In this document: one piece after another, positions 1,067 to 20,274 of the stretch
How the letters are laid out: every line of letters starts with the position of its first letter
Position numbering within the stretch: position 1 is the first letter of the stretch
Virus record (IMG/VR): IMGVR_UViG_3300006810_000402
Span: 1-23,368 of that record
DNA: 23,368 nucleotides
From: a virus
Reading direction: 5' to 3' (one strand)
Made by a program: the position numbers and the translations under genes
Notes under the pieces: model-generated
Seen by the model: the letters and a program-made list of their open reading frames with translations, nothing else
What the model was told of the DNA's origin: nothing
The model's database searches: none

Positions 1067-1086
1067 GGAGTTATCTTATCTACTAA

Positions 1087-1096
1087 GCTTTCAACG
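1087..1096 (-). promoter_or_regulatory. GTTGAAAGC motif, copy 1 (upstream of the 183-aa gene)
   Basis: On the minus strand the sequence is CGTTGAAAGC followed by TTAGTAGATAAG, ending 20 bp before the ATG at 1066. It sits directly after a terminator hairpin, where a new transcript would be expected to start. The same 9-mer recurs at 9001-9009 and twice inside 9565-9582, each time pointing at a gene. Promoter function is inference; an operator or a leader RNA element is also possible. Confidence 0.5.
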
Positions 1097-1126
1097 AAAA
1101 GAAAGAGGGAGGTAAAGATACCTCCC
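1097..1126 (-). terminator. Intrinsic terminator after the SSB-like gene
   Basis: Read on the minus strand, an 8-bp perfect stem GGGAGGTA / TACCTCCC with a 4-base loop (TCTT) is followed at once by TCTTTCTTTT. It begins 11 bp after the stop codon of the gene at 1137-2072. Stem GC content, tight loop and the T-rich tail fit a Rho-independent terminator. It separates the SSB-like gene from the downstream group. Confidence 0.75.
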
Positions 1127-1136
1127 CCCAGAGCGA

Positions 1137-3669: not shown

Positions 3670-6600
3670 TTAGGAAACCCTCATAATATAAGCTAAAGCG
3701 TACCAAGATGGCTCAATTACATTTGCTTGAGTAATTGTATGAGAGTGCCCAGGAATGTTAAAGTTATGAGTATGACTAGGAACGGAGAATGTATGACTAT
3801 GAGACCCAATTGAGTGACTATGGGACTCTCCATTAAGGCTGTTTAAGCCCCCTGAATCACATGTCCCTCCCCTCACGCAGTCTCCGCCGGCTCCGGTAAA
3901 CCCATTTCCTGAGAATTGAACAATATTTTGATATACAGGACCGTCACTCCCCCCATTAATAGTAATCCTAGCTGCTGTGTTTGGAATGGCGGCGTGAGAG
4001 TGACGTGGTGTTTGACGGATGGTAAGGGCATGTCCTTGAGTCGTTAAAGAAACCTGATTGGTAGAACTGCTCACATTCCCGCCTGACGTGGTTGCTCCTA
4101 TCTCACTACTGATAGAGTCGGTAATTGCATCGATGGTCGGGCCTCCAGTCTTGGGATCAGAGTCAGACGATAAACCTTTAATAAATCTGTTTATTAAGTT
4201 TGGAGTAGTACGGCCATCTATTGTCTGGCCGTTGCAAAGCGCCCAATTTTGTGGTATTTCGGTAATAAGCCCCGACCACATAATAATTCCACCAATCGGA
4301 GTAAAACCTCCATAAGTGGGGTCTACCGACAGAGTGTATTGCAGGATGTCGTCATCAGGATCGGCCGGATCGCCATCTGGAGGGTTAATTAACTGCTGAG
4401 TTACTACTATACCAGTACCTTGGGCAAAAGCATTTTCAAACCGGATATTTAATTCTTCCGCAAGATCTTGGGCAGTAACTGCCACCTTATCGCTAACTCC
4501 GGCACTTCCCCGGCCCAGAGCACCTCTGATAACAGAGGAATCGGCTAATTGTACCAGTCCAGCTTTTTCCCTGCTGGCATATACTTCCGGAGGAGAGTTG
4601 GAAGCAACGATATCCCCGGTGGTAAGAGACTTGAATTGAGTATCGTTACTAAAGAAGATAGTTGTTCCCCGACCCATGACAAAACTTGAATTGTCTTGCA
4701 TGAGTAGGGTAGTATTGATGATGACATTATTAAGAACCTGGTTGGTGACGTTACCTGGTTCTGAATCGGCTTTGAGCGGGATTGCAAACTGCTCACCAGA
4801 GCGGAGGTCGAATACTGTCGTACCAATATAATAGCTCCCCTCCTCATTCATGCCCGTGGCATATACCCGGCCCCCATCTTCCTCGACAATGATCTTACCT
4901 AGAGCAAAGTCCTGCTCCAGCGGATCGCCTTGGAAAGTTGGGAAGGCCGTATCGTAGTTAAGATATCCTGTCCATTCCCATGTATGACCAGATGCTCTAA
5001 TAACCGAGGGACGGCGCAGACTCACCCTGATGCCCTGAGTTGTGGCACTAGAGGTAGTCTTAAGTTCAATAGGAGTTACGGATGGGGCAAGGGAATCACT
5101 GAAAAATACCCCGGGTCTTTCCTTAAAATTAACCAGGGCCTCCCGAGTAATAGATTCACTCGGATCTTCAGTTAGTTCTGGTTCATCGGCATCTTTTCTT
5201 GGGAAAATATCACCCGAAAATACACCACGGGCTGCTGAACCGAGAGTCAGGTAAGTGACAAATTTACCTGGAAACCTAATATCTGTCGATCCCGGCCTCA
5301 CCTGGTCGTCAAATGTTTTGACTTGGGTAATGGTAAGTGGATCCTTACCTAAAGTATTTCCCGCATTGAGGGGGAAGCCGGCTGTCCCAACCTGCTTCTC
5401 CATGATGTAGTACGGCTGAGGTCGACGAATTCCCTTTTCTTTGTTATAGCCGTCAAGGACAAGCTTATAGACTCTTTGGTCATCGGTTCTGTTGTCAGTA
5501 GCTCTGATAATTTTAACCGCGCTTCTGTCAAAAATAAAATCAAGAGTGGAGAACACCTCCGAAGTCCCACCAACTCCAGGTCTTAACTTAAATCTAAATG
5601 CGTAATAAAATTTCTTAAGCAGATATCCGTCATTGTCAATATCGCCAGTTCCCGGACGGGGTAAACCGGTGGCAGAATCAATCACTTCGGGATTTTCTTC
5701 AGTAATGTCGGTAGTAGATAGATTTACATACCACAGATTAAGAACATCATCCCAGACAAAAATTTTAGACCGATCGTCCAATTCAGCAAATCCTGGTGAT
5801 GATTCATTTGGAATTTGAATATCTCCGGAGTACAAGATTGAGTTGCCCACCTCATCAAACCCGGTAACATACAGCCTTCTTCTGTTTTCTCTTACTTGCC
5901 CGCCTGCATGGACATAAACCCCTGTTTCTAGTTTCTTGGTGTAAGAGTACTGCCCAAAGGCAATATCAGATGCCGATGGGGGAAAATTAAATGTATAAGG
6001 CGTAGCGGTATTTGAGTTTTGGATATAGAGCCGAATATTTGGAGTCTGAGGCTGGCCGGAATAAGTATTTACAATATACTCTAAAGTTTCTGTGTAACGA
6101 ATAACGCATCCTGTGTTGATTTCAATATCCGACAGAGTTGGTCGGGACCCGTCTGATAGAGTAGAATAACTAAGAGGGAGTGGCGGGATAATCTGTAATG
6201 CCTTGGTACCTGGGTACCCGGCGTCTGGGATGCCCTCATCTTGGCTGAAAGCTTCCGCTTTGTAACCAATTCCTCTCAGGGAAATGTCACCAAAGTCGGA
6301 GCAGGAGTTCGTAATTGAAAGGTCGGCTCCAGACTCAGAAACGAAGTGGTCGCTGTTGCCGATAACGAACACGGAGACGATTTGGATCGTCGCATCGTTG
6401 CTGCCCCGCGTACCGAAATGGCGGTACTTAAACGGGTCGTTGGTCGACGTTTTGTACTGCTTACCAGTGCCACTGCTCTTGTTGGTCGGAGGATCTTCGA
6501 AATAGGTGGTCGGAGTGAAACAGTTGGGGTCGGTTTGGAGACTAACTTGAGTGAAGTTAGCGGTAACCATCGATTTGAAGCCGGCTACTCGGCTTCCTTC

Positions 6601-8973
6601 TGCCCAGAGACCGTTGAGACCGAAGATGGAGCGGACTGAACAATTGAAGACGTAAGGCGAACTCGATCTCGTCGAGTTGATATCGGGGAGAGGAAGGATA
6701 GATCCGTCGGTGTCACGGATCCTGGTAGCACCGGGATAAGATATAGGAGCATTGTCTCTTCCGTCACCACCGTTTACTCTAAGTCCGGTCTGATTCTCCT
6801 CTAGGTCCCTATCCCTATTCGTTTTGCTATCGGCGATAGGTGCTACGATTGTTGTTTCGGCAGGAAGTGCTTCTAAGCCGTCAGCACCCCAGCCATCTAG
6901 GTCTTTAAATAACGTGTTGATCCTACCATAATACGGGGTTTCCGTGCCAGTTCCATTAATCTCTGCTTGTGACGCAAACGCTACTGACGTTACGGTATTG
7001 TGAGTACGAGGATACTGCGGGTTATCAGTGAAGGTTAGAAGAGATACGTACGTACCGCCTGTAACTTTTAGCATTGCAGTTCTTTCTGACTGCGGATCGT
7101 TTTTGACCGGAGTAAGTTCGGGAACATACATAGGGCGGAGACGAACTTTCCTCAGGTCGGTTCCGTCTACCGAAATACCCCGGGGGACGATAAGACCGCC
7201 GGTCTGCGGGTTTACTACGGACAAGTTATCGTAGTAGATTTTGTCGTTAATATTGAATCCGCCTCTTACATACTCCAGAGTGACGACCCAGTTGGAGTTG
7301 GAAGGGGAGATTTTCTCAATCCTGGCGATATTACCTACCCCGCCCGACTCGCTGTAAAGTACGCGGCCTAGGTTCAACGCTCTGGGAGGCTGATTACTAA
7401 CCGAGTCTCCTACGTCGACAGTAATATGGACTACTCTATCCCCTACCGATACGCTACCAACTTCGTACCCCGAGTCAGTCCTCTGTATGAGGCCGGTGTC
7501 ATCTGTAACCGCTAGGGGGGCTAAGGATCCAGGGGCATTATCAATGTAGTAGTCCCCGGGGGCTAGCTCGATCATGACTCTGTCGTAACGGTCATTGGCC
7601 TGACCACTACGCCGGGATTCCCTCACCGCTTCGATAAGGGCGCGTTCTAGAGTACGGAAAGGACGTCCTGCTTCAGAGCCAGCATTACCTATGGAGTCAT
7701 CACCGATGCTAGGGTCGACGAAGATGGTATTACGCGAAGTAGAAATCGCGCTCGCCGTCCCCTCTCTGTCACACCGGGGGGCGTTGGCGATGCTGATAAG
7801 ACCGCCTGTACCGTTAGCATACAGCGCGACGGTGTTGTCATATACCCGATAACATTTACCCAGAGTCGGATCGCTCTGGGAAGGTTCGAAGCTATATACT
7901 CCTGCACTGGGTTCGGGATATCTAGTGGGAAGAGCCGCTCCGTCCGGACACTCTACTGCAGTGCGATCACCGATGAATTCTCGGCCACCGCAGGATAGGA
8001 AGTTACCCAGGACCGGATTGCACTCGGTTCCTGGGGCTTCTTCGAATTTCCACTGCCCGGTAGCGGAATGGTAAAACAATTCTAAGTGGGCGTCACGGAT
8101 ATTAACGATCCAATCATCGCTGGAACTATTAAGCAGCTCAAGGGATACAGGGTTTTGGCGGATAATCAGAGGGAACCGGTCAAATGTACCGGAAATATCA
8201 ACCACCGCGATTCGATCGGAATCAGAAGGGAATTCTGGTAGAGTCAGGATGACACTACCGCTGCTGGTATCGATGATAACTCGGTCCCAAATATCGGCTG
8301 TATAATCAGCACTTTGTACCGCAGTGTTGGTGAGGTTTTGAGGATAAGTGTTGAGATTTCCTACAAACGTATTGGGCCGAAGATCGATATATCCCGTGCC
8401 GACAACTTCGTTTGTCTGAGGATCTGTGGCAAGACCGTCTCCGGTACTATTAAGGACTAGTTTCGCAAGAGGTATATGAGCTTTAGTTACACTGGGCAGA
8501 CTGTTGCCCATCGACACCGACAAGGGGTCGGATCCGTCATCGAGGACGTAGAGGTACGAGACGCTATCCGCACCGCCCAGGATCTGGACAGTTTGTCTAG
8601 GCCAGGAGACGGGATTTCCATCTCTGCCGACAAAACTACCAGCTTCAACGGTGACACCGATGCCGCCGGCACCTACGGGCCGGGTGCTAGGCGTTCCGGG
8701 AACTACGACGGATTCGGCTACGCTATCCCAACCTAAGACGATGCCGTCATGAGCGGATCGGCCCAGGGCGGATTCCTGATCTACCCGGGGATCGGCGATT
8801 TCCCAATCCTTGATGCCATCTCTCTGGCCAATCTCCCACCCCGCTTCATCTCCGGCCGTGGGGTCGGCATAGTAGTCTGTCCGACTATTGCCGGTAAACT
8901 TATCACCTTTCTGTACCTCATTGAGGTACTGGCTGCTAACAGCCTTTCCGTTCTGAAATACGATACGATCCAC
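3670..8973 (-). CDS. Giant tail fibre / tail collar protein (1767 aa)
   Basis: Likely a long virion fibre that binds the host surface. The start is the GTG at 8973, giving MDRIVFQNGKAVSSQYLNEV; no ATG lies between it and the in-frame TAG upstream. Residues about 1-150 look like a baseplate-attachment region. Residues 411-475 (IFVDPSIGDD, then GRPFRTLERAL and APGDYYID) have the look of a right-handed beta-helix, as in pectate-lyase-like fibres. Long beta-rich repeats of no clear period follow. Residues about 1553-1600 match a tail collar domain (PIGGIIMWSG, WALCNGQTIDGRTTPNL). The C-terminus has one HSH near 1657 and four closely spaced HxH pairs at about 1717-1745, like the iron-binding needles of T4 gp37, then WYALAYIMRV. 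A GTTGAAAGC motif lies 27 bp before the start. The distal third is visibly AT-richer. Confidence 0.85.
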   Translation of the reverse strand: MDRIVFQNGKAVSSQYLNEVQKGDKFTGNSRTDYYADPTAGDEAGWEIGQRDGIKDWEIADPRVDQESALGRSAHDGIVLGWDSVAESVVVPGTPSTRPVGAGGIGVTVEAGSFVGRDGNPVSWPRQTVQILGGADSVSYLYVLDDGSDPLSVSMGNSLPSVTKAHIPLAKLVLNSTGDGLATDPQTNEVVGTGYIDLRPNTFVGNLNTYPQNLTNTAVQSADYTADIWDRVIIDTSSGSVILTLPEFPSDSDRIAVVDISGTFDRFPLIIRQNPVSLELLNSSSDDWIVNIRDAHLELFYHSATGQWKFEEAPGTECNPVLGNFLSCGGREFIGDRTAVECPDGAALPTRYPEPSAGVYSFEPSQSDPTLGKCYRVYDNTVALYANGTGGLISIANAPRCDREGTASAISTSRNTIFVDPSIGDDSIGNAGSEAGRPFRTLERALIEAVRESRRSGQANDRYDRVMIELAPGDYYIDNAPGSLAPLAVTDDTGLIQRTDSGYEVGSVSVGDRVVHITVDVGDSVSNQPPRALNLGRVLYSESGGVGNIARIEKISPSNSNWVVTLEYVRGGFNINDKIYYDNLSVVNPQTGGLIVPRGISVDGTDLRKVRLRPMYVPELTPVKNDPQSERTAMLKVTGGTYVSLLTFTDNPQYPRTHNTVTSVAFASQAEINGTGTETPYYGRINTLFKDLDGWGADGLEALPAETTIVAPIADSKTNRDRDLEENQTGLRVNGGDGRDNAPISYPGATRIRDTDGSILPLPDINSTRSSSPYVFNCSVRSIFGLNGLWAEGSRVAGFKSMVTANFTQVSLQTDPNCFTPTTYFEDPPTNKSSGTGKQYKTSTNDPFKYRHFGTRGSNDATIQIVSVFVIGNSDHFVSESGADLSITNSCSDFGDISLRGIGYKAEAFSQDEGIPDAGYPGTKALQIIPPLPLSYSTLSDGSRPTLSDIEINTGCVIRYTETLEYIVNTYSGQPQTPNIRLYIQNSNTATPYTFNFPPSASDIAFGQYSYTKKLETGVYVHAGGQVRENRRRLYVTGFDEVGNSILYSGDIQIPNESSPGFAELDDRSKIFVWDDVLNLWYVNLSTTDITEENPEVIDSATGLPRPGTGDIDNDGYLLKKFYYAFRFKLRPGVGGTSEVFSTLDFIFDRSAVKIIRATDNRTDDQRVYKLVLDGYNKEKGIRRPQPYYIMEKQVGTAGFPLNAGNTLGKDPLTITQVKTFDDQVRPGSTDIRFPGKFVTYLTLGSAARGVFSGDIFPRKDADEPELTEDPSESITREALVNFKERPGVFFSDSLAPSVTPIELKTTSSATTQGIRVSLRRPSVIRASGHTWEWTGYLNYDTAFPTFQGDPLEQDFALGKIIVEEDGGRVYATGMNEEGSYYIGTTVFDLRSGEQFAIPLKADSEPGNVTNQVLNNVIINTTLLMQDNSSFVMGRGTTIFFSNDTQFKSLTTGDIVASNSPPEVYASREKAGLVQLADSSVIRGALGRGSAGVSDKVAVTAQDLAEELNIRFENAFAQGTGIVVTQQLINPPDGDPADPDDDILQYTLSVDPTYGGFTPIGGIIMWSGLITEIPQNWALCNGQTIDGRTTPNLINRFIKGLSSDSDPKTGGPTIDAITDSISSEIGATTSGGNVSSSTNQVSLTTQGHALTIRQTPRHSHAAIPNTAARITINGGSDGPVYQNIVQFSGNGFTGAGGDCVRGGTCDSGGLNSLNGESHSHSIGSHSHTFSVPSHTHNFNIPGHSHTITQANVIEPSWYALAYIMRVS

Positions 8974-9000
8974 AGTCGAACAATAAATACTTTCTAACTA

Positions 9001-9009
9001 GCTTTCAAC
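9001..9009 (-). promoter_or_regulatory. GTTGAAAGC motif, copy 2 (upstream of the tail fibre gene)
   Basis: On the minus strand GTTGAAAGC follows the TGA of the 175-aa gene with no gap, and lies 27 bp before the GTG of the tail fibre gene. The bases after it are TAGTTAGAAAG, similar to the TTAGTAG and AGAGTAGG seen after other copies. It may give the fibre gene its own transcript start. Confidence 0.5.
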
Positions 9010-9537
9010 TCATTTCGCCCATAGTAGTCTTGCTCTCCAGGCAGGAGAAGGACCGAAGCAGCTAAGTTCGATCATGGCTACGGAACCGGACTTTGCGTAG
9101 AAATCGAGAGGAGACGGGTACTGCTGGCTATTTAGACCGCCCCAAGTCTCTTGACTAGCTGACCAGAAGGAAGGGTCGCCCCAATCGACGTCGTAGTCGA
9201 AGTAGGTTGTCAAAGTCTCTAAGGGGTTGCCAACAAAGCGGAGAAGAATGCGTAGTTCTCTGTAAAACCCCGGCGGGACGTTATTCGGATCGGGGACGGG
9301 GATAGGCATGTTATCCGGATTGGTAACATCGAGGTCGAGGTAGTTCCCGGAGAATAAGTTACCATTAATCGGCTTATTAATACACGATCCACCTAGCTCG
9401 ATTGGATTGCCGGAGACATTGCCTATCCACAACCTGCCATCGGAAGAATTGGCGATGAGTTCGGACTCCTCAGCATCTCCGATGAACGGCTCTTCTCCTG
9501 GCAACGGTGTACTTAAAATCTGTACGGTAGCTTCCAT
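9010..9537 (-). CDS. Hypothetical small virion-type protein next to the tail fibre
   Basis: The 175-residue product is probably a structural protein associated with the tail fibre, judging from position and composition. Residues 25-50 contain ELIANSSDGRLWIGNVSGN, which resembles the short GRL-W/Y-I beta-hairpin repeats common in phage fibre proteins. The rest is beta-rich with many aromatic residues and few charged helices, such as FYRELRILLRFVGNPLE and DYDVDWGDPSFW. No enzyme motif, signal peptide or membrane segment is seen. It is the first gene of the leftward transcript, starting 27 bp from one half of the 18-bp palindrome, and is followed by the fibre gene. A role as adapter between baseplate and fibre is possible but unproven. 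Confidence 0.65.
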   Translation of the reverse strand: MEATVQILSTPLPGEEPFIGDAEESELIANSSDGRLWIGNVSGNPIELGGSCINKPINGNLFSGNYLDLDVTNPDNMPIPVPDPNNVPPGFYRELRILLRFVGNPLETLTTYFDYDVDWGDPSFWSASQETWGGLNSQQYPSPLDFYAKSGSVAMIELSCFGPSPAWRARLLWAK

Positions 9538-9564
9538 AGCTTACTTAATTCACATTCCTACTCT

Positions 9565-9582
9565 GCTTTCAACGTTGAAAGC
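9565..9582. promoter_or_regulatory. Perfect 18-bp palindrome carrying GTTGAAAGC copies 3 and 4 in the divergent region
   Basis: GCTTTCAACGTTGAAAGC is a perfect inverted repeat in the 68-bp gap between the leftward 175-aa gene and the rightward 336-aa gene. Each half, read outward, is the same 9-mer found at 1087 and 9001. It lies 27 bp from the leftward ATG (9537) and 23 bp from the rightward GTG (9606). A back-to-back promoter pair or an operator for a dimeric regulator would both fit. No convincing sigma70 -10 box is seen nearby on either strand. Confidence 0.6.
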
Positions 9583-9605
9583 ATGGTAGTGGGATAAGTA
9601 TCGCT

Positions 9606-10616
9606 GTGGCAACCTATTTAACAGATTCCTGGTCTACAATATCTAATCTCGCCGCAGTGGCATATGGTTTTGCAGACAGGTATCCTGAAGTAGCAAATCA
9701 GGTGAGATCGAAGAGTCCGATTAGGGTTCTTGGCGCTGCAGCACCGTCTGAGATTGTAAAAAACGGCATAGAACTTTCCGATCTCATATCGACTCTTACT
9801 CAGGAGTATAATGAAGGAGGAGAATTCTCCCGATACGTCGATAGTCAGTACAAGTCTGTGAGCGATATAGCCAATGACCTTTACGAATCTGTCTCTCAAT
9901 CTTATAACGAATCTTCAAGCTACGAGTATTCATTAACCGATGCAATGGACTATGTCGGTATACCCTTAGACAGCCAGAGAGTAAAGACTAGTCTCGAGTC
10001 TTTAAACCCTGACCTCAATCTTTTTTCCCGCCTCGCCTCGTCTATGGCGCACAATAAGCTGGATAAGTTGCCAGAGGGCAGTCGAATACAGCTTGATGAC
10101 AGCATCGATATGGCCGCTGACTACCGAGGGATATCTTTCGACACGGGATATCTAACACCCGATCAGTACTTTTCTAACATAGCCTACCCCGGCCTCAGTA
10201 ATACTTCTATCGATATACCGCAGACACTAGCAAAGTCGGTTCAGGACGGATATGTAGGATATTCTACTACCGAGCCTTTAGAATCACTAAGTAGGCCGGA
10301 CATCGTAGATACAATCTCCCCCTCCGATATCTCCGATCTAAGTAAAGTCTACCGCCCCCTCTCCGGCCTGGGCACCATCAACACACTGAAAGACTTGAGC
10401 GGTTTCGGAGCCCTTAGCGAAGCGGATCAGGCTATGTACAATGTGAACATTTCAGAACTAGTGGTCGATATCAACGGATATACCATCTACGATCCGGCTA
10501 CCGATTCTAACGGTGATTTTATCGATACCAGTTTAGTGCCCGACTATGAATCTGACAACGCTGATACCGGGCTACCTTATTCTTCTCGGACTAGATCGAC
10601 AACTTTTGAGAGTTAA
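9606..10616 (+). CDS. Hypothetical protein, first gene of the baseplate operon
   Basis: A 336-residue protein that I do not recognise. It begins with GTG (MATYLTDSWSTISNLAAV) 23 bp after the palindrome; the preceding ATG at 9583 reaches a stop after four codons. The protein is acidic and Ser-, Tyr- and Asp-rich, with a helical first half (LSDLISTLTQEYNEGGEF, SVSDIANDLYESVSQSYN) and a more extended second half ending in a Ser/Thr-rich tail. No signal peptide, membrane segment or enzyme motif is visible. Its stop lies 2 bp before the baseplate J-like gene, so it is the first gene of the baseplate-terminase operon and may be a baseplate or tail assembly protein. This role is inferred from position only. 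Confidence 0.7.
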   Translation: MATYLTDSWSTISNLAAVAYGFADRYPEVANQVRSKSPIRVLGAAAPSEIVKNGIELSDLISTLTQEYNEGGEFSRYVDSQYKSVSDIANDLYESVSQSYNESSSYEYSLTDAMDYVGIPLDSQRVKTSLESLNPDLNLFSRLASSMAHNKLDKLPEGSRIQLDDSIDMAADYRGISFDTGYLTPDQYFSNIAYPGLSNTSIDIPQTLAKSVQDGYVGYSTTEPLESLSRPDIVDTISPSDISDLSKVYRPLSGLGTINTLKDLSGFGALSEADQAMYNVNISELVVDINGYTIYDPATDSNGDFIDTSLVPDYESDNADTGLPYSSRTRSTTFES

Positions 10617-13805: not shown

Positions 13806-16746
13806 AAATCCTTTCAAGCCTCTGGCAAATATGGCCAGAGCTCAGACTAGAATTATTGAAACTCTGGGAGTTCCCTACGCCGATCCCTTCAACGAAGAGG
13901 CAGTCATCTCCGATGTTAATGACCCGCTGAAGCTAGGTCGGGTGAAGGTTACCACTGAGGATGGGATTGTCTCTCAGTGGATACCTGTGTCCGGATCCAA
14001 TAAGGGGGTACTGAGTGCGAGATATATTGGTTCAAAAGTTTTGGTTGGTAAAACCAACGGAAGATCGGAAAATATGTATGTCGTAGGGGTTATAAGAAAC
14101 GACCCGGACATCGGGGTTTCAGGAAATCCTTTACAACTACCTATCATTGATGAAAGTACTGGAGTCTGGAATGAGACTACGGACTCTGGTATGAAGTGTA
14201 ATGAAGGTAATGAAGGACGTATGTACGTCCTCAGTAATGAGATGAATCAGGATGTGGTCGTATGCCTTAGACGCACAAGCAATCAGGTGGGAAGTAAACC
14301 CGCCTGGTCTTGGAAATCGATTACAAGTGGGCTTTGGGTAGAGAAAGGAATTAACCCGGGAAACGAAACTACCCCTGCTATTACTCAGGCTCAGGAGAGA
14401 AACCCGGGAATACCTGAATGCAATGAGTCGTTGCTGGGAGAAGTTCATGAATTCACTGAAGACAGAGGATTCCGTACCACTTCTATGGTATGTAGGAGGG
14501 ATGAGAATAAAAACTTCTCTTGGTTACCCCTAAGCGCTCCGCCGGTATTCTTTCGTACCACGCTGCCTAAATGCAGTGAGAAGGTTCATGGCATAGAGGC
14601 TGTGCTGGACGACGGCAATAACTCGGAGTTCTTAGTCTGTCAGAGATATCAGGGATTACTGCGCTGGGTAAGGCATGGGAGGCGTATACCTCATCAGTTT
14701 TTTAGCAAAGAACCCCCTCTTACAAGGATCCAATTCACAACAGGATTTAACCCTATTGAAACTTTGTCTGAAAGCCCCATGTCTGCGGATGACTGGGCTA
14801 AAGAACCAGAGATAGCAGAAGTCGCCTTCGACACCGCCATAGCGGATATTGATATTACCGGGACAGATCCGAGGCTCAAAGAGCTGTTACGTCTCGCAGG
14901 TCTCGTGCCCGCTACCGCCTTCGACGGAGCCCAGACAATGAGAAGGGTCGCTAATGAAGCGTTGAGAAAAAAGACAGGCATTCCTGTGGAGACAATAACT
15001 AAGTTGATAAGAGAAGATCTGGACCGAGATGGATCGTTGACCCCTGCTACGGCACAGGCACTTACCGGTGTTGGAAGTGCGGCAGACGCACTCGTTAACG
15101 GGGTGACTGGGGGAGACCTGGATTCCGCCCTCTTATCGATCGGACAGAGTACTCTGCGAAATGCGATGTTGTCGATTAACCCCCAGGCAGCGTCGGTGAT
15201 GACCGGACTAATGAGCGGAGGAATAATGGGAGCTGTGGACAGCGCAGTTGCCATAGGTCTGGATCAATTACCCCCTGAAGTAAACAAATACGTGTCGCCT
15301 GTGGTGGGGATAGCTAAAGACCTGCTGACCTCCGCTTATCCCAGCTCGCTTGGAAATATCCTCAACTCGGCTTCTGGCGGCGGCCTCCTTGCCGCAGTGA
15401 ATGGGACTATTAATAGTGCGATAGGGAACAATGTTGTGACTCCGCAACTGTTGTCGACATTAGCGACGGGCCTCTCTTCGGGCTCTCTGGGTGAAATACC
15501 CAAGCTGTTCGGATCAATGGGTAACCTGGACCAGATTTCGAAGCTCCCAGCACCCGCTAATGCAATACCTGCCCTAGCTACCACTGCTCTGGGAGTGTCT
15601 GGCCTGGCCAGTGTTGCTCAGGACCTCCTTGGGAAGGGGGGCATAGGTCTAAATAACCTCGACAAGGTTATTGGAGGTGGATTCAGCGCGGCTAAGACGA
15701 TAATATCTGGGGTCAAGGGTCTAACAGGGTTGTTTGGCTCGTCGGGGTCCCTGGGCTGCCCCTGTGATCCTAAGTGCAGAAAGACCGAGCATGGAGAAGA
15801 TAGTGATGGGAATAATTTACTAGAAAAATGTGGGTCTATGACATCAAATAACGCGAATTCTTATGCCGCTAAAGGTAATCCTTTGGAGAATAATTCTGGC
15901 CCAATAGCAGAGGAACAGAGGTTGTCTTTTACCAGCGTAGGAGAAGAGCTGTTGCCGGGCAACATTAGAAACCTAAGCGCATCGATTAGGGGGATCTCTA
16001 GGGTGGGTGAAATGGCCGAGAAGTATTTCGCATCGAAATACGCTGACCAAGTTGATAAAGAATCCGAACTAGCTTATACCTTTGAAGCAGTAGAAAAATC
16101 TCTTAAGGTGGCGGATAATAACATCACTAGAATAGAGTCTATTGAGAAAAAATTAATAGACGGGCTTTATAGATTCTTGAGAGCTATTGCTTACGAAGAA
16201 GAGTATGAGAGAGAGTTTGCCATTCTACCCCTCTTGATACGTGATGTTAGAGAGAACTCTCAAGCTATAAGAGATATCTACAAATTCACTAAACGTCTCG
16301 ATCAGGTTAAAGACGGCCCCAGAGTGGGTGTTAATGTAACCACTCCAATTTCCAGAGCGTTTCGAAATATACCAGATCTAGCCAGGCTGCTAAGGATAAA
16401 TAAAGAGTTAGCAAAAAATATCCTGGAGGGGTCTGTTAAACCGGCTTACGAAGAATGGAAAACCCTGGACCCCGATGTAAATTCTGATACTGCCCTAGGG
16501 GTATATAGTGAAACTATTCCTGATCCATTTGACCAAGAGCGTACTCTTTTCGATAAAGACAGAGTACTATCTATAAGTTTAGAATCTAAGCTAGGAGATA
16601 ATTCTTCTCCAACAGAAAGTACAGTACTAGATTCAACACTATCCCCTGATCAACTAAATCGGCTCAAATCAGTGTCTCCTGATTTAGTTGAAAGATCATT
16701 ATACGACCAAATAGTTGACAGGAAGGGTAAGACTAGTTGTGAATAA
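13798..16746 (+). CDS. Baseplate hub / spike protein with gp5-VgrG-type OB fold
   Basis: A 982-residue protein (numbering from the ATG at 13798; a TTG 9 bp upstream is less likely). Residues about 33-100 match the N-terminal OB fold of gp5/VgrG spikes: AVISDVNDPLKLGRVKV, SQWIPVSG, GSKVLVGKTNGRSENMYVVG. Three tandem Cys-bracketed units follow (C134-C156-W172, C208-C232-W242, C259-C281-W290). Residues about 420-650 are Gly-, Ala-, Leu- and Ser-rich and weakly hydrophobic. A CPCDPKCRKTEHGEDSDGN segment at about 653-671 may bind metal. Residues about 740-900 are charged, heptad-like helices, probably coiled coil. No lysozyme domain is present, unlike T4 gp5; lytic activity is in the separate gene at the right edge. 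The stop overlaps the terminase start. Confidence 0.75.
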   Translation: MVENPFKPLANMARAQTRIIETLGVPYADPFNEEAVISDVNDPLKLGRVKVTTEDGIVSQWIPVSGSNKGVLSARYIGSKVLVGKTNGRSENMYVVGVIRNDPDIGVSGNPLQLPIIDESTGVWNETTDSGMKCNEGNEGRMYVLSNEMNQDVVVCLRRTSNQVGSKPAWSWKSITSGLWVEKGINPGNETTPAITQAQERNPGIPECNESLLGEVHEFTEDRGFRTTSMVCRRDENKNFSWLPLSAPPVFFRTTLPKCSEKVHGIEAVLDDGNNSEFLVCQRYQGLLRWVRHGRRIPHQFFSKEPPLTRIQFTTGFNPIETLSESPMSADDWAKEPEIAEVAFDTAIADIDITGTDPRLKELLRLAGLVPATAFDGAQTMRRVANEALRKKTGIPVETITKLIREDLDRDGSLTPATAQALTGVGSAADALVNGVTGGDLDSALLSIGQSTLRNAMLSINPQAASVMTGLMSGGIMGAVDSAVAIGLDQLPPEVNKYVSPVVGIAKDLLTSAYPSSLGNILNSASGGGLLAAVNGTINSAIGNNVVTPQLLSTLATGLSSGSLGEIPKLFGSMGNLDQISKLPAPANAIPALATTALGVSGLASVAQDLLGKGGIGLNNLDKVIGGGFSAAKTIISGVKGLTGLFGSSGSLGCPCDPKCRKTEHGEDSDGNNLLEKCGSMTSNNANSYAAKGNPLENNSGPIAEEQRLSFTSVGEELLPGNIRNLSASIRGISRVGEMAEKYFASKYADQVDKESELAYTFEAVEKSLKVADNNITRIESIEKKLIDGLYRFLRAIAYEEEYEREFAILPLLIRDVRENSQAIRDIYKFTKRLDQVKDGPRVGVNVTTPISRAFRNIPDLARLLRINKELAKNILEGSVKPAYEEWKTLDPDVNSDTALGVYSETIPDPFDQERTLFDKDRVLSISLESKLGDNSSPTESTVLDSTLSPDQLNRLKSVSPDLVERSLYDQIVDRKGKTSCE
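16687..16695 (+). promoter_or_regulatory. Degenerate GTTGAAAG copy upstream of the terminase gene
   Basis: GTTGAAAGA differs from the 9-mer at the last base, points at the terminase gene and lies 43 bp before its probable GTG start (19 bp before an alternative TTG). It is inside the coding sequence of the hub protein, so codon constraint could explain it. Confidence 0.2.
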
Positions 16747-18356: not shown

Positions 18357-19202
18357 ATGAGCAGAAAAAAATCACTTAATAACACTGTAGTTTACCAATG
18401 GCTCAGAAAAAATGGTACCCCATATTATATAGGGATAGGAAATCCAAGAAGACCCTACTATGACAGAAGAACATGTGGAGCTCCTCCACCGAGAGACAGA
18501 ATAGTAATTCTGCATGAAAATCTTAGTTGGGAGGAGGCTTGTAAAATTGAAATAGAGTTAATAGCCCACTACGGGAGAAAAGACATTGGTACAGGAATAT
18601 TACGCAATATGACCGATGGTGGAGAAGGTGCTAATGGATCTTGTAAACCGAAATACAAAGAAAACTGGTATCATGTTAATTACGGAGTTATCAAAAATAA
18701 ATCTGTCAGGGAGCTTAGTGACATGTTTCCGGATCAAAAATTGTGTCAATCTATGCTAAATAAGGTCAGAAAAGGTCAGAGAGATCATCATAAACTTTGG
18801 ACACTAGAGTCCACCCCTGAAAAGTCCAGATTACTTCATGAGGAAAGAATAGAGTACAACTGGTATCATAAAGATCACGGATATTATTGCTTATCTCAAG
18901 CAGAATTAGCTAGAAAATTTAATATGTGTCCTTCTCATCTTCCTCAAGTAGTCAGTAAAAAACTAGATCATTTTATGGGATGGACCTTAGCAGATACACC
19001 TGAGCTATCAAACTATAAAAATTTGAGGACTAGTAAAATTACTTGGATTCACCATATTTATGGGGTTGTGATCTGCTCTCAAGTAGAGCTCAGAAAAAAA
19101 TTTTCAGAGATGAATTTGTCTTCTTCGGCTCTTTCCTGTGTATGCAGTGGTAAAAGAAATCAGCATAAGGGGTGGAGACTACTAAACCCCGTCATGACAT
19201 AA
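18357..19202 (+). CDS. GIY-YIG homing endonuclease with three tandem C-terminal repeats
   Basis: A 281-residue free-standing endonuclease. The GIY-YIG domain covers about residues 10-93: VVYQWLRKNGTPYYIGIGNP holds the two strands (VVY and YIG), Arg residues follow at 31-38, and LSWEEACKIEIELIAHYGR carries the metal-binding Glu. IGTGILRNMTDGGEGA closes the domain as in phage homing enzymes. Residues 102-150, 168-211 and 229-275 form three repeats with W-x-H near the start, a central Ser-x-x-Glu-Leu-x-x-x-Phe and a final H-x-x-x-W-x-L, probably DNA-binding units. The gene is inserted between terL and the thioredoxin operon and is AT-rich (20 of 60 bases G or C at 18661-18720 by hand count), which fits a mobile gene. 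A TATACT at 18340 may drive it. Its recognition site cannot be told. Confidence 0.82.
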   Translation: MSRKKSLNNTVVYQWLRKNGTPYYIGIGNPRRPYYDRRTCGAPPPRDRIVILHENLSWEEACKIEIELIAHYGRKDIGTGILRNMTDGGEGANGSCKPKYKENWYHVNYGVIKNKSVRELSDMFPDQKLCQSMLNKVRKGQRDHHKLWTLESTPEKSRLLHEERIEYNWYHKDHGYYCLSQAELARKFNMCPSHLPQVVSKKLDHFMGWTLADTPELSNYKNLRTSKITWIHHIYGVVICSQVELRKKFSEMNLSSSALSCVCSGKRNQHKGWRLLNPVMT

Positions 19203-19223
19203 TTCCCTATTTTATGTTATAAT
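19194..19223 (+). promoter_or_regulatory. Sigma70-type promoter with extended -10, for trx-sigma-DUF3223
   Basis: ATGACA at 19194-19199 (one mismatch to TTGACA), an 18-bp spacer, and TATAAT at 19218-19223 preceded by TG one base upstream (TGTTATAAT). Transcription would begin about 20 bases before the thioredoxin ATG at 19250. The -35 box overlaps the end of the endonuclease gene. This is the best host-type promoter seen in the window and suggests expression by unmodified host RNA polymerase. Confidence 0.68.
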
Positions 19224-19249: not shown

Positions 19250-19564
19250 ATGGAAGACTTTAAAACTAGGGTGGTATTTTTTACACAACCAGGTTGCCCC
19301 GCCTGCGACGCAATGAAACCTATTTTCGCCCGAGTTGCAGGCGAAATAGCAGAAGAATACCCTGAGCTCAGGGTTGGCTGGGGCGAATTTAACGTCCTTG
19401 ATGACAACTGGGAATTCCTAGAGTCCCTGGTACCTGGCGAATCGGGCAACGGGACCCCAGAGTTCGCCATCTTCGACGAAGAATGCAACTTGATCGCCTT
19501 TAACGGTGAAGGCATTATGTCTGCTACTCAAATGAGAGATTTTGTACTAAAGAATAGTAAATGA
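19250..19564 (+). CDS. Thioredoxin-like protein
   Basis: A 104-residue thioredoxin-fold protein that reduces disulphides through a dithiol site. VVFFTQPGCPACDAMKPIF gives the first strand and the CPAC active site (Cys16, Cys19), in place of the usual CGPC. GNGTPEFAIF carries the cis-Pro (about residue 70) opposite the site, and the final helix is MRDFVLKN. The length is normal for the family. In a cyanophage it could supply electrons to the ribonucleotide reductase encoded at the left edge, or act as a DNA polymerase processivity factor as in T7; the sequence does not decide. Its stop overlaps the sigma factor start (ATGA), so the two are coupled. Transcription probably starts from the extended -10 promoter just upstream. 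No strong Shine-Dalgarno is seen. Confidence 0.85.
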   Translation: MEDFKTRVVFFTQPGCPACDAMKPIFARVAGEIAEEYPELRVGWGEFNVLDDNWEFLESLVPGESGNGTPEFAIFDEECNLIAFNGEGIMSATQMRDFVLKNSK

Positions 19565-20274
19565 GACCGGTAGAATTAGAAAACCTCAAGGGGGTTAGAC
19601 GATCAGAATATGAGAGAACCAGAGAAATGCATATTAGAGAAAATATGTGGAAGGCTTCTCATGCAGCGAGAAAGGTTTCTGGCTTTAGCGGACTCCCATT
19701 CGAAGAATTAAGATCAGTGGCTCTGGAAGCTATGGTAAAATTATACGATAAATGGGATCCTGAGAAGGCAAATTTTAGCACCTGGTTAAATAGATCGCTT
19801 ACTTTTCAGCTCCTAAACTATCTCAGAGACAGCTCTAGAATTATTAAAGTTCCTCGAACTTATGCCGATACTTACATAAAGATACGAAAAATTATCGGAA
19901 CTAACCCCGAGATTACTGACCACGAAGTGGCCGATATGACTGGATTAAAGGAGTCTCTGATAAGGGAAACTCGGAGAGCTTATCAGGTCACGTATCAGGA
20001 GATAAACGAGGATACAGAGTTACCCTTCGAAGATAAGACCCCTCAAGAAGATTGTATTGATACGATGCTATCGGGCTATTCTGAGATTTTGATAAGGTTG
20101 GCGGATCTTCCTGAAAAAGAATACCAGTTTCTTAGTGACGTATATGTTAACAAACGGGCCAATTCTACTATATTTAGAAAATATCCAGGGATTAATAGCC
20201 AACACCATATTAAAGAAGAAACCCAGAGAATTCTTAGCAAAGTTTTAGAAAATCCATGTCTATCAGATACGTAA
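19561..20274 (+). CDS. Phage sigma factor, sigma70 family
   Basis: A 237-residue protein expected to redirect host RNA polymerase to phage promoters. Region 2 spans about residues 30-92: LPFEELRSVALEAMVKLYDK with the WDPEKANFSTWLNRS core and helix LTFQLLNYLRD. KVPRTYADTY then TNPEITDHEVADMTGL (115-129) is the region 3 helical part. The C-terminal part, LIRLADLPEKEYQFL to about residue 230, keeps the spacing of region 4 (Leu-Pro-x-x-Glu, then helix-turn-helix) but is degenerate. The size and domain layout fit cyanophage late sigma factors related to T4 gp55, though gp55 itself lacks region 4. It is coupled to thioredoxin by ATGA and overlaps the next gene by 19 bp. The GTTGAAAGC motif is a possible target. 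Confidence 0.8.
   Translation: MRPVELENLKGVRRSEYERTREMHIRENMWKASHAARKVSGFSGLPFEELRSVALEAMVKLYDKWDPEKANFSTWLNRSLTFQLLNYLRDSSRIIKVPRTYADTYIKIRKIIGTNPEITDHEVADMTGLKESLIRETRRAYQVTYQEINEDTELPFEDKTPQEDCIDTMLSGYSEILIRLADLPEKEYQFLSDVYVNKRANSTIFRKYPGINSQHHIKEETQRILSKVLENPCLSDT

Follow-up and report, generated by a model that had tools for sequence, protein, structure and literature searches.

A candidate late promoter element of S-TIM5-like cyanophages and its likely recognition by a phage sigma factor

Between two divergent genes of a viral DNA stretch of 23,368 nt (the window, which is the whole stretch analysed) lies a perfect palindrome of 18 bp. Each of its arms is a copy of the nonamer GTTGAAAGC, and the question that this locus raises is whether the palindrome serves as an operator for a dimeric regulator or represents two promoters placed back to back. 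The original prediction left open "promoter or operator" and favored a late promoter read by the phage sigma factor.

Judged by its sequence, the window is part of the genome of a virus related to cyanophage S-TIM5 (Aurunvirus). TerL and the product of gene 1137-2072 are 54% and 57% identical to the S-TIM5 proteins, respectively, and the gene order agrees with that of S-TIM5. A megablast comparison of the window with deposited phage records gave no match at the DNA level. As the window contains four sites only, the case rests on related genomes, of which about 30 contigs were found. The features of the window are as follows:

1077-1095, minus strand: putative late promoter copy 1; GTTGAAAGC at 1095-1087, TAG at +4 to +6, 20 bp upstream of the ATG at 1066 (gene 515-1066)
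1104-1129, minus strand: intrinsic terminator-like hairpin that has a T-rich tail and stops at promoter copy 1
8991-9009, minus strand: putative late promoter copy 2; GTTGAAAGC at 9001-9009, 27 bp upstream of the GTG at 8973 (tail-fibre gene 3670-8973)
9555-9573, minus strand: putative late promoter copy 3, left arm of the palindrome; GTTGAAAGC at 9565-9573, 27 bp upstream of the ATG at 9537 (gene 9010-9537)
9565-9582, no strand: perfect 18-bp palindrome, two putative back-to-back promoters with 0 bp between them
9574-9592, plus strand: putative late promoter copy 4, right arm of the palindrome; GTTGAAAGC at 9574-9582, 23 bp upstream of the GTG at 9606 (gene 9606-10616)
19194-19223, plus strand: extended -10 sigma-70-type promoter, ATGACA-18-TATAAT (11 of 12 matches), upstream of the thioredoxin-like/sigma gene pair
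19561-20274, plus strand: phage sigma factor (SigB/F/G-type sigma-70, by profile, alignment and model), the proposed reader

The palindrome and the four element copies

All four exact copies of GTTGAAAGC are intergenic and each is oriented toward a gene. The positions and the gaps to the start codons given in the original prediction were reproduced, and a scan of both strands confirmed its statement that the window holds no further exact copy. The excess over chance that it had claimed is also borne out, as 0.13 copies are expected on both strands under an order-3 Markov model. The bases downstream of the copies had been said to agree loosely; this agreement is real, with TAG at the fixed offset of +4 to +6 in all four sites. 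One copy had been described as directly following an intrinsic terminator, and the hairpin at 1129-1104 indeed precedes the copy at 1087. Such terminator-like upstream sequence is not a regular neighbor of the element, being found at 4 of the 97 sites described below.

Some of the genes downstream of these copies carry the element, or its variant, in related genomes as well. The orthologues of the tail-fibre gene have it at distances of 34 (contig G006) and 27 (contig G005). Gp099, the S-TIM5 orthologue of gene 9010-9537, is preceded by the variant GTTTAAAG 30 bp upstream of its start. Gene 9606-10616, which opens the run of genes from the baseplate to TerL, is the orthologue of an S-TIM5 virion protein whose start has GTTTAAAG 27 bp upstream. 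At this same divergent gene pair S-TIM5 thus carries GTTTAAAG followed by CTATATTAG.

An operator, in which the GCTTTCAACGTTGAAAGC palindrome is occupied by a dimeric repressor or activator, would account for the recurrence of the perfect zero-spaced 18-bp palindrome in 18 distinct sequence contexts, some of them orthologous. Most copies of the element, however, are single half-sites followed by the same TAG, and the spacing of the back-to-back pairs is not fixed. In the clade of the window it is 0 bp in these 18 contexts, 1 bp in three and 9 bp in one, while the S-TIM5 pairs are separated by 5, 11 and 17 bp; there are no face-to-face pairs within 40 bp. The variable spacing shows that the dyad itself is not fixed and argues that the palindrome is two promoters and no operator, the latter being very improbable. 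Of the original alternative, the promoter is therefore favored over the operator, single copies being the norm. One idea suggested by the abutting arrangement is that zero-spaced copies fire in a mutually exclusive fashion.

Anatomy, spread and gene classes of the element

Alignment of 97 non-redundant sites gives the consensus (C)GTTGAAAGC-W-A-D-R-T-A-G-A-R-R, a contiguous element of about 20 bp. It retains the idea of an extended motif put forward in the original prediction and replaces its 16-letter consensus. No column outside the element, between -49 and +59 of the 97 aligned sites, carries appreciable information. Specifically, these sites have no strongly conserved column upstream that could represent a -35 element, and no host -10 or -35 box at a fixed distance. 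The architecture of host sigma-70 promoters, in which -35 and -10 hexamers are 16-18 bp apart, is absent, since there is no second conserved box. The possibility that GTTGAAAGC or GTTTAAAG is itself a -35 box with normal spacing was considered and rejected: the distance to the start codon is frequently just 20-27 bp, and such a role is very unlikely because no -10 box lies downstream of the element.

The commonest placement of GTTGAAAGC is 19-30 bp upstream of the start of a gene on the same strand, and 125 of 166 copies are found 16-40 bp upstream of such a start. In six contigs, 75 of 101 exact copies lie 15-45 bp upstream of starts, compared to 13 of 128 single-mismatch nonamers and a positional background of 1.4%, which indicates strong constraint on the sites. 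Scanning the relatives for the motif and tabulating the distances to start codons had been suggested as a check, and the copies indeed precede same-strand genes within a narrow range of distances. The pattern that was named as contrary to a promoter, copies scattered inside genes genome-wide with no orientation bias, was looked for and was not seen.

Seven of the 13 single-mismatch copies near starts are GGTGAAAGC. Four of these seven are 43 bp upstream of a gene start (that of TerL in G006 and G005) and, as they are inside conserved coding sequence, GGTGAAAGC may be a chance occurrence or a degenerate site. The window has a one-mismatch copy, GTTGAAAGA, at 16687-16695 on the plus strand, inside the gene upstream of TerL, and the GGTGAAAGC of the relatives, 43 bp upstream of TerL, is near the matching position. 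These sequences are either a degenerate terL late promoter or the result of coding conservation.

Of 21 related records, 19 contain the nonamer, whereas the reversed GTTGAAAGC, used as a control, occurs 0-1 times. Under the order-3 Markov model, 34 copies were observed compared to 1.14 expected in a contig of 127 kb, 21 compared to 0.70 in one of 91 kb, and 19 compared to 0.62 and 16 compared to 0.65 in two contigs of 70 kb. Among all nonamers of the four largest contigs, GTTGAAAGC ranks first in three; in the remaining one, only a local repeat ranks higher. Distant relatives identified by TerL have 0-4 copies. A repeat of another kind was noticed at the gene-poor end of the 91-kb contig G005, where TTGGGCCGTTA is repeated at least 21 times within positions 78872-88008; the copies are in both orientations, and some of them adjoin GC-rich hairpins.

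Orthologous genes that carry GTTGAAAGC in the clade of the window carry GTTTAAAG in S-TIM5. The latter is the most over-represented octamer of the S-TIM5 genome (36 copies, 11 expected). Twenty-six copies are intergenic, 25 of these within 100 bp of a start, whereas four near variants of GTTTAAAG have no intergenic copies in S-TIM5. Where S-TIM5 sites have TAG, it is mostly shifted one base downstream compared to the clade of the window. The corresponding region of S-TIM54 agrees with the S-TIM5 variant.

The element is strongly associated with one class of genes. In S-TIM5, it is found within 60 bp upstream of 17 of 47 structural and packaging genes compared to 8 of 165 others (p=1.6e-7), and in relatives G006 and G005 it precedes 25 of 52 structural orthologues but none of the 25 named non-structural ones. 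The few non-structural S-TIM5 genes with the element are aGT and hypotheticals. Some structural genes are without it, many of them inside apparent operons. Of the 92 S-TIM5 genes that start no more than 10 bp behind another gene of the same direction, none carries the element, and it is therefore a mark of transcription units. This distribution also bears on the possibility that the motif acts in the RNA, as a translation or mRNA stability signal in the 5' leader. Such a signal would be expected on the sense strand near start codons, where the element is found, but the element is concentrated at the starts of transcription units, and nothing is conserved between it and the start codon, so that a role in the RNA is the most remote of the readings considered here.

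These sequence comparisons strongly support the identification of GTTGAAAGC-N4-TAGARR as a late (virion-gene) promoter of S-TIM5-like cyanophages. The late-promoter proposal of the original prediction is upheld, in that the element marks virion genes in the clade of the window and, as a variant, in S-TIM5.

Replication and metabolic genes of S-TIM5 have promoters of another type. A scan for sigma-70 promoters that match the consensus in at least 11 of 12 positions found 17, 13 of them near starts, compared to 7-10 in shuffled sequence; the genes for DNA polymerase, primase, thyX, dCMP deaminase and hli, and also psbA, are among those preceded by such a promoter. The psbA gene has GTTTAAAG 201 bp upstream and, in addition, a sigma-70 promoter close to the consensus at a distance of 158 bp (L040 8047-8100), which suggests that it is expressed both early and late. 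A dual early and late promoter upstream of psbA has been described in the T4-like cyanophage S-PM2d (PMC5931967). The S-TIM5 gene is alike in combining a sigma-70 promoter with a late element, but the late site of S-PM2d is of the Gp55 type (PMC5931967) and that of S-TIM5 is GTTTAAAG.

The phage sigma factor and other candidate readers

The phage sigma factor aligns over its full length with Staphylococcus SigB and also aligns with other three-domain sigma factors. Its match to the Pfam sigma region 2 profile passes. TIGR02980, the profile of SigB/SigF/SigG-type sigma factors, matches residues 19-228 at a score below the curated cut-off. The AlphaFold model has modest confidence (pLDDT 67, pTM 0.35), with pLDDT values of 75-90 in the C-terminal helical domain; together with the TIGR02980 match it indicates a predicted sigma-4-like domain. 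In the alignment with cyanobacterial SigA, the region 2.4 residues WWIRQAIT are replaced in the phage protein. TATAAT is thus an unlikely target, and a specificity for another sequence is plausible. Between the clades, S79, T81 and Q83 are changed to C, Q and H in S-TIM5.

The sigma factor was found in every related lineage examined across that region, and was not found in the distant TerL relatives, where GTTGAAAGC is absent or rare. The Cylindrospermopsis phage Cr-LKS4, with a sigma factor 29% identical, has no excess of GTTGAAAGC (2 copies, 2 of the reversed control); its count of GTTTAAAG is 14 versus 4. In the first 80 kb of Cr-LKS4, TAGCACCTA / TAGGTGCTA is strongly over-represented (17 copies, 1.4 expected) and could be a regulatory element of that phage's own.

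The sigma gene itself appears to be under different control. Nearly all related lineages have a TGn-TATAAT-like sequence (TGTGYTATAATACA-like) upstream of the thioredoxin-like/sigma pair, at the position that the extended -10 promoter has in the window; GTTGAAAGC was not found there in either the window or the related lineages. The extended -10 promoter probably represents the early or middle promoter class of the clade. The position of the sigma gene behind a promoter of the host type fits a cascade, in which this promoter gives rise to the phage sigma factor and the sigma factor to activity of the late promoters. Between TerL and the thioredoxin-like gene, the window has an ORF (18357-19202, plus strand) that, by its sequence, is possibly a GIY-YIG-type homing endonuclease. 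It is absent in several relatives, in which the promoter of the sigma pair is directly downstream of TerL.

The absence of a conserved -35 box despite the sigma-4-like domain implies that the usual geometry of sigma-70 promoters does not account for the element. This combination is odd for a stand-alone sigma factor and would be in line with a late promoter whose specificity comes from another phage factor, an activator or an RNA-polymerase-binding protein, acting with the host sigma factor; a good many of the phage proteins are hypothetical. However, an activator that cooperates with the sigma factor of the host would require host -10 or -35 boxes at a fixed distance, and none is conserved. 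Moreover, the sigma factor alone is recognized as a specificity factor, and its occurrence follows that of the motif from lineage to lineage. Another phage factor is thus rather unlikely, though it deserves more weight than a phage RNA polymerase of the single-subunit T7 type. The latter would explain a compact contiguous motif of about 20 bp that ends in TA-G followed by purines, features shared with T7-type promoters, but no such polymerase appears to be encoded: PF00940 has no match in the complete S-TIM5 genome and related contigs (T7 control, E=1e-109), which makes this reader highly improbable. Recognition by the phage sigma factor on host RNA polymerase, as judged from the sequences, is likely.

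Proposed course of late transcription and its relation to known systems

The following course of events can be proposed. In the early phase of infection, the RNA polymerase of the host, carrying a host sigma factor, would use sigma-70-type promoters, including that of the thioredoxin-like/sigma pair. The phage sigma factor would then join the host core polymerase and lead this enzyme to GTTGAAAGC. This contiguous element would take the part of an extended -10 box and span about -14 to -6, the zone read by sigma region 2. The start of transcription would coincide with the TAG or be close to it (T at -1, A at +1), so that virion genes would have a 5' leader of about 15-22 nt, and no separate -35 element would be used. 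At the palindrome, the abutting promoters would fire divergently, probably one at a time. We infer from the comparisons above the start site, the sigma factor as reader, the late timing and the mutual exclusion. Taken as a whole, a late promoter with a contiguous core and no -35 element, used by the phage sigma factor with host polymerase, is with good probability the best explanation of the data. A fuller combination can be offered tentatively: a three-domain SigB/F-type sigma factor with a region-4-like domain would read contiguous GTTKAAAG...TAG without a -35 contact, the switch of the fourth base between G and T, together with the region 2.4 changes, would be a natural specificity switch between lineages, and the zero-spaced pairs would be mutually exclusive divergent late promoters.

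The element would belong with late promoters of phage sigma factors in general, in that a sigma-70-family protein is encoded and the element precedes virion transcription units. It resembles the T4 late promoters (gp55) in its single short -10-type element, the lack of a -35 box, the association with virion genes, and the assignment to a phage-encoded sigma factor while other genes have host-type promoters. The distance from element to transcription start in T4 is similar to that presumed here. The T4 late octamer TATAAATA, however, differs from GTTGAAAGC and GTTTAAAG, and the T4 sigma factor is reduced and devoid of region 4, whereas the present one is predicted to have regions 2, 3 and 4. 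In S-TIM5, TATAAATA occurs 16 times (12 times reversed), with two copies near starts, and is not placed upstream of genes. A gp45 clamp was not found with PF02916, for which the T4 control was positive, although a divergent clamp could escape the profile. A gp55/gp33/gp45 system of the T4 type was rejected on these grounds, namely the unused octamer and the failure to find gp45. SigB has GTTTAA-like -35 boxes, similar to the S-TIM5 element, but the element does not behave as a normal -35 box of a SigB-type promoter, as there is no conservation downstream at the distance expected of a -10 box.

No description of the element was found in the open-licence literature, where matches to the motif text were unrelated; the original description of S-TIM5, reportedly in PNAS in 2012 and outside that scope, may note the motif. 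The element apparently defines the late regulon of S-TIM5-like cyanophages, a cultured marine member included, with an element sequence and a type of sigma factor that differ from those of T4-like cyanophages. It gives a rule by which late transcription units can be annotated directly in contigs from the environment. As each sigma lineage is tied to its own element, the specificity of sigma factor for promoter can be tested with the matched pair GTTGAAAGC and GTTTAAAG.
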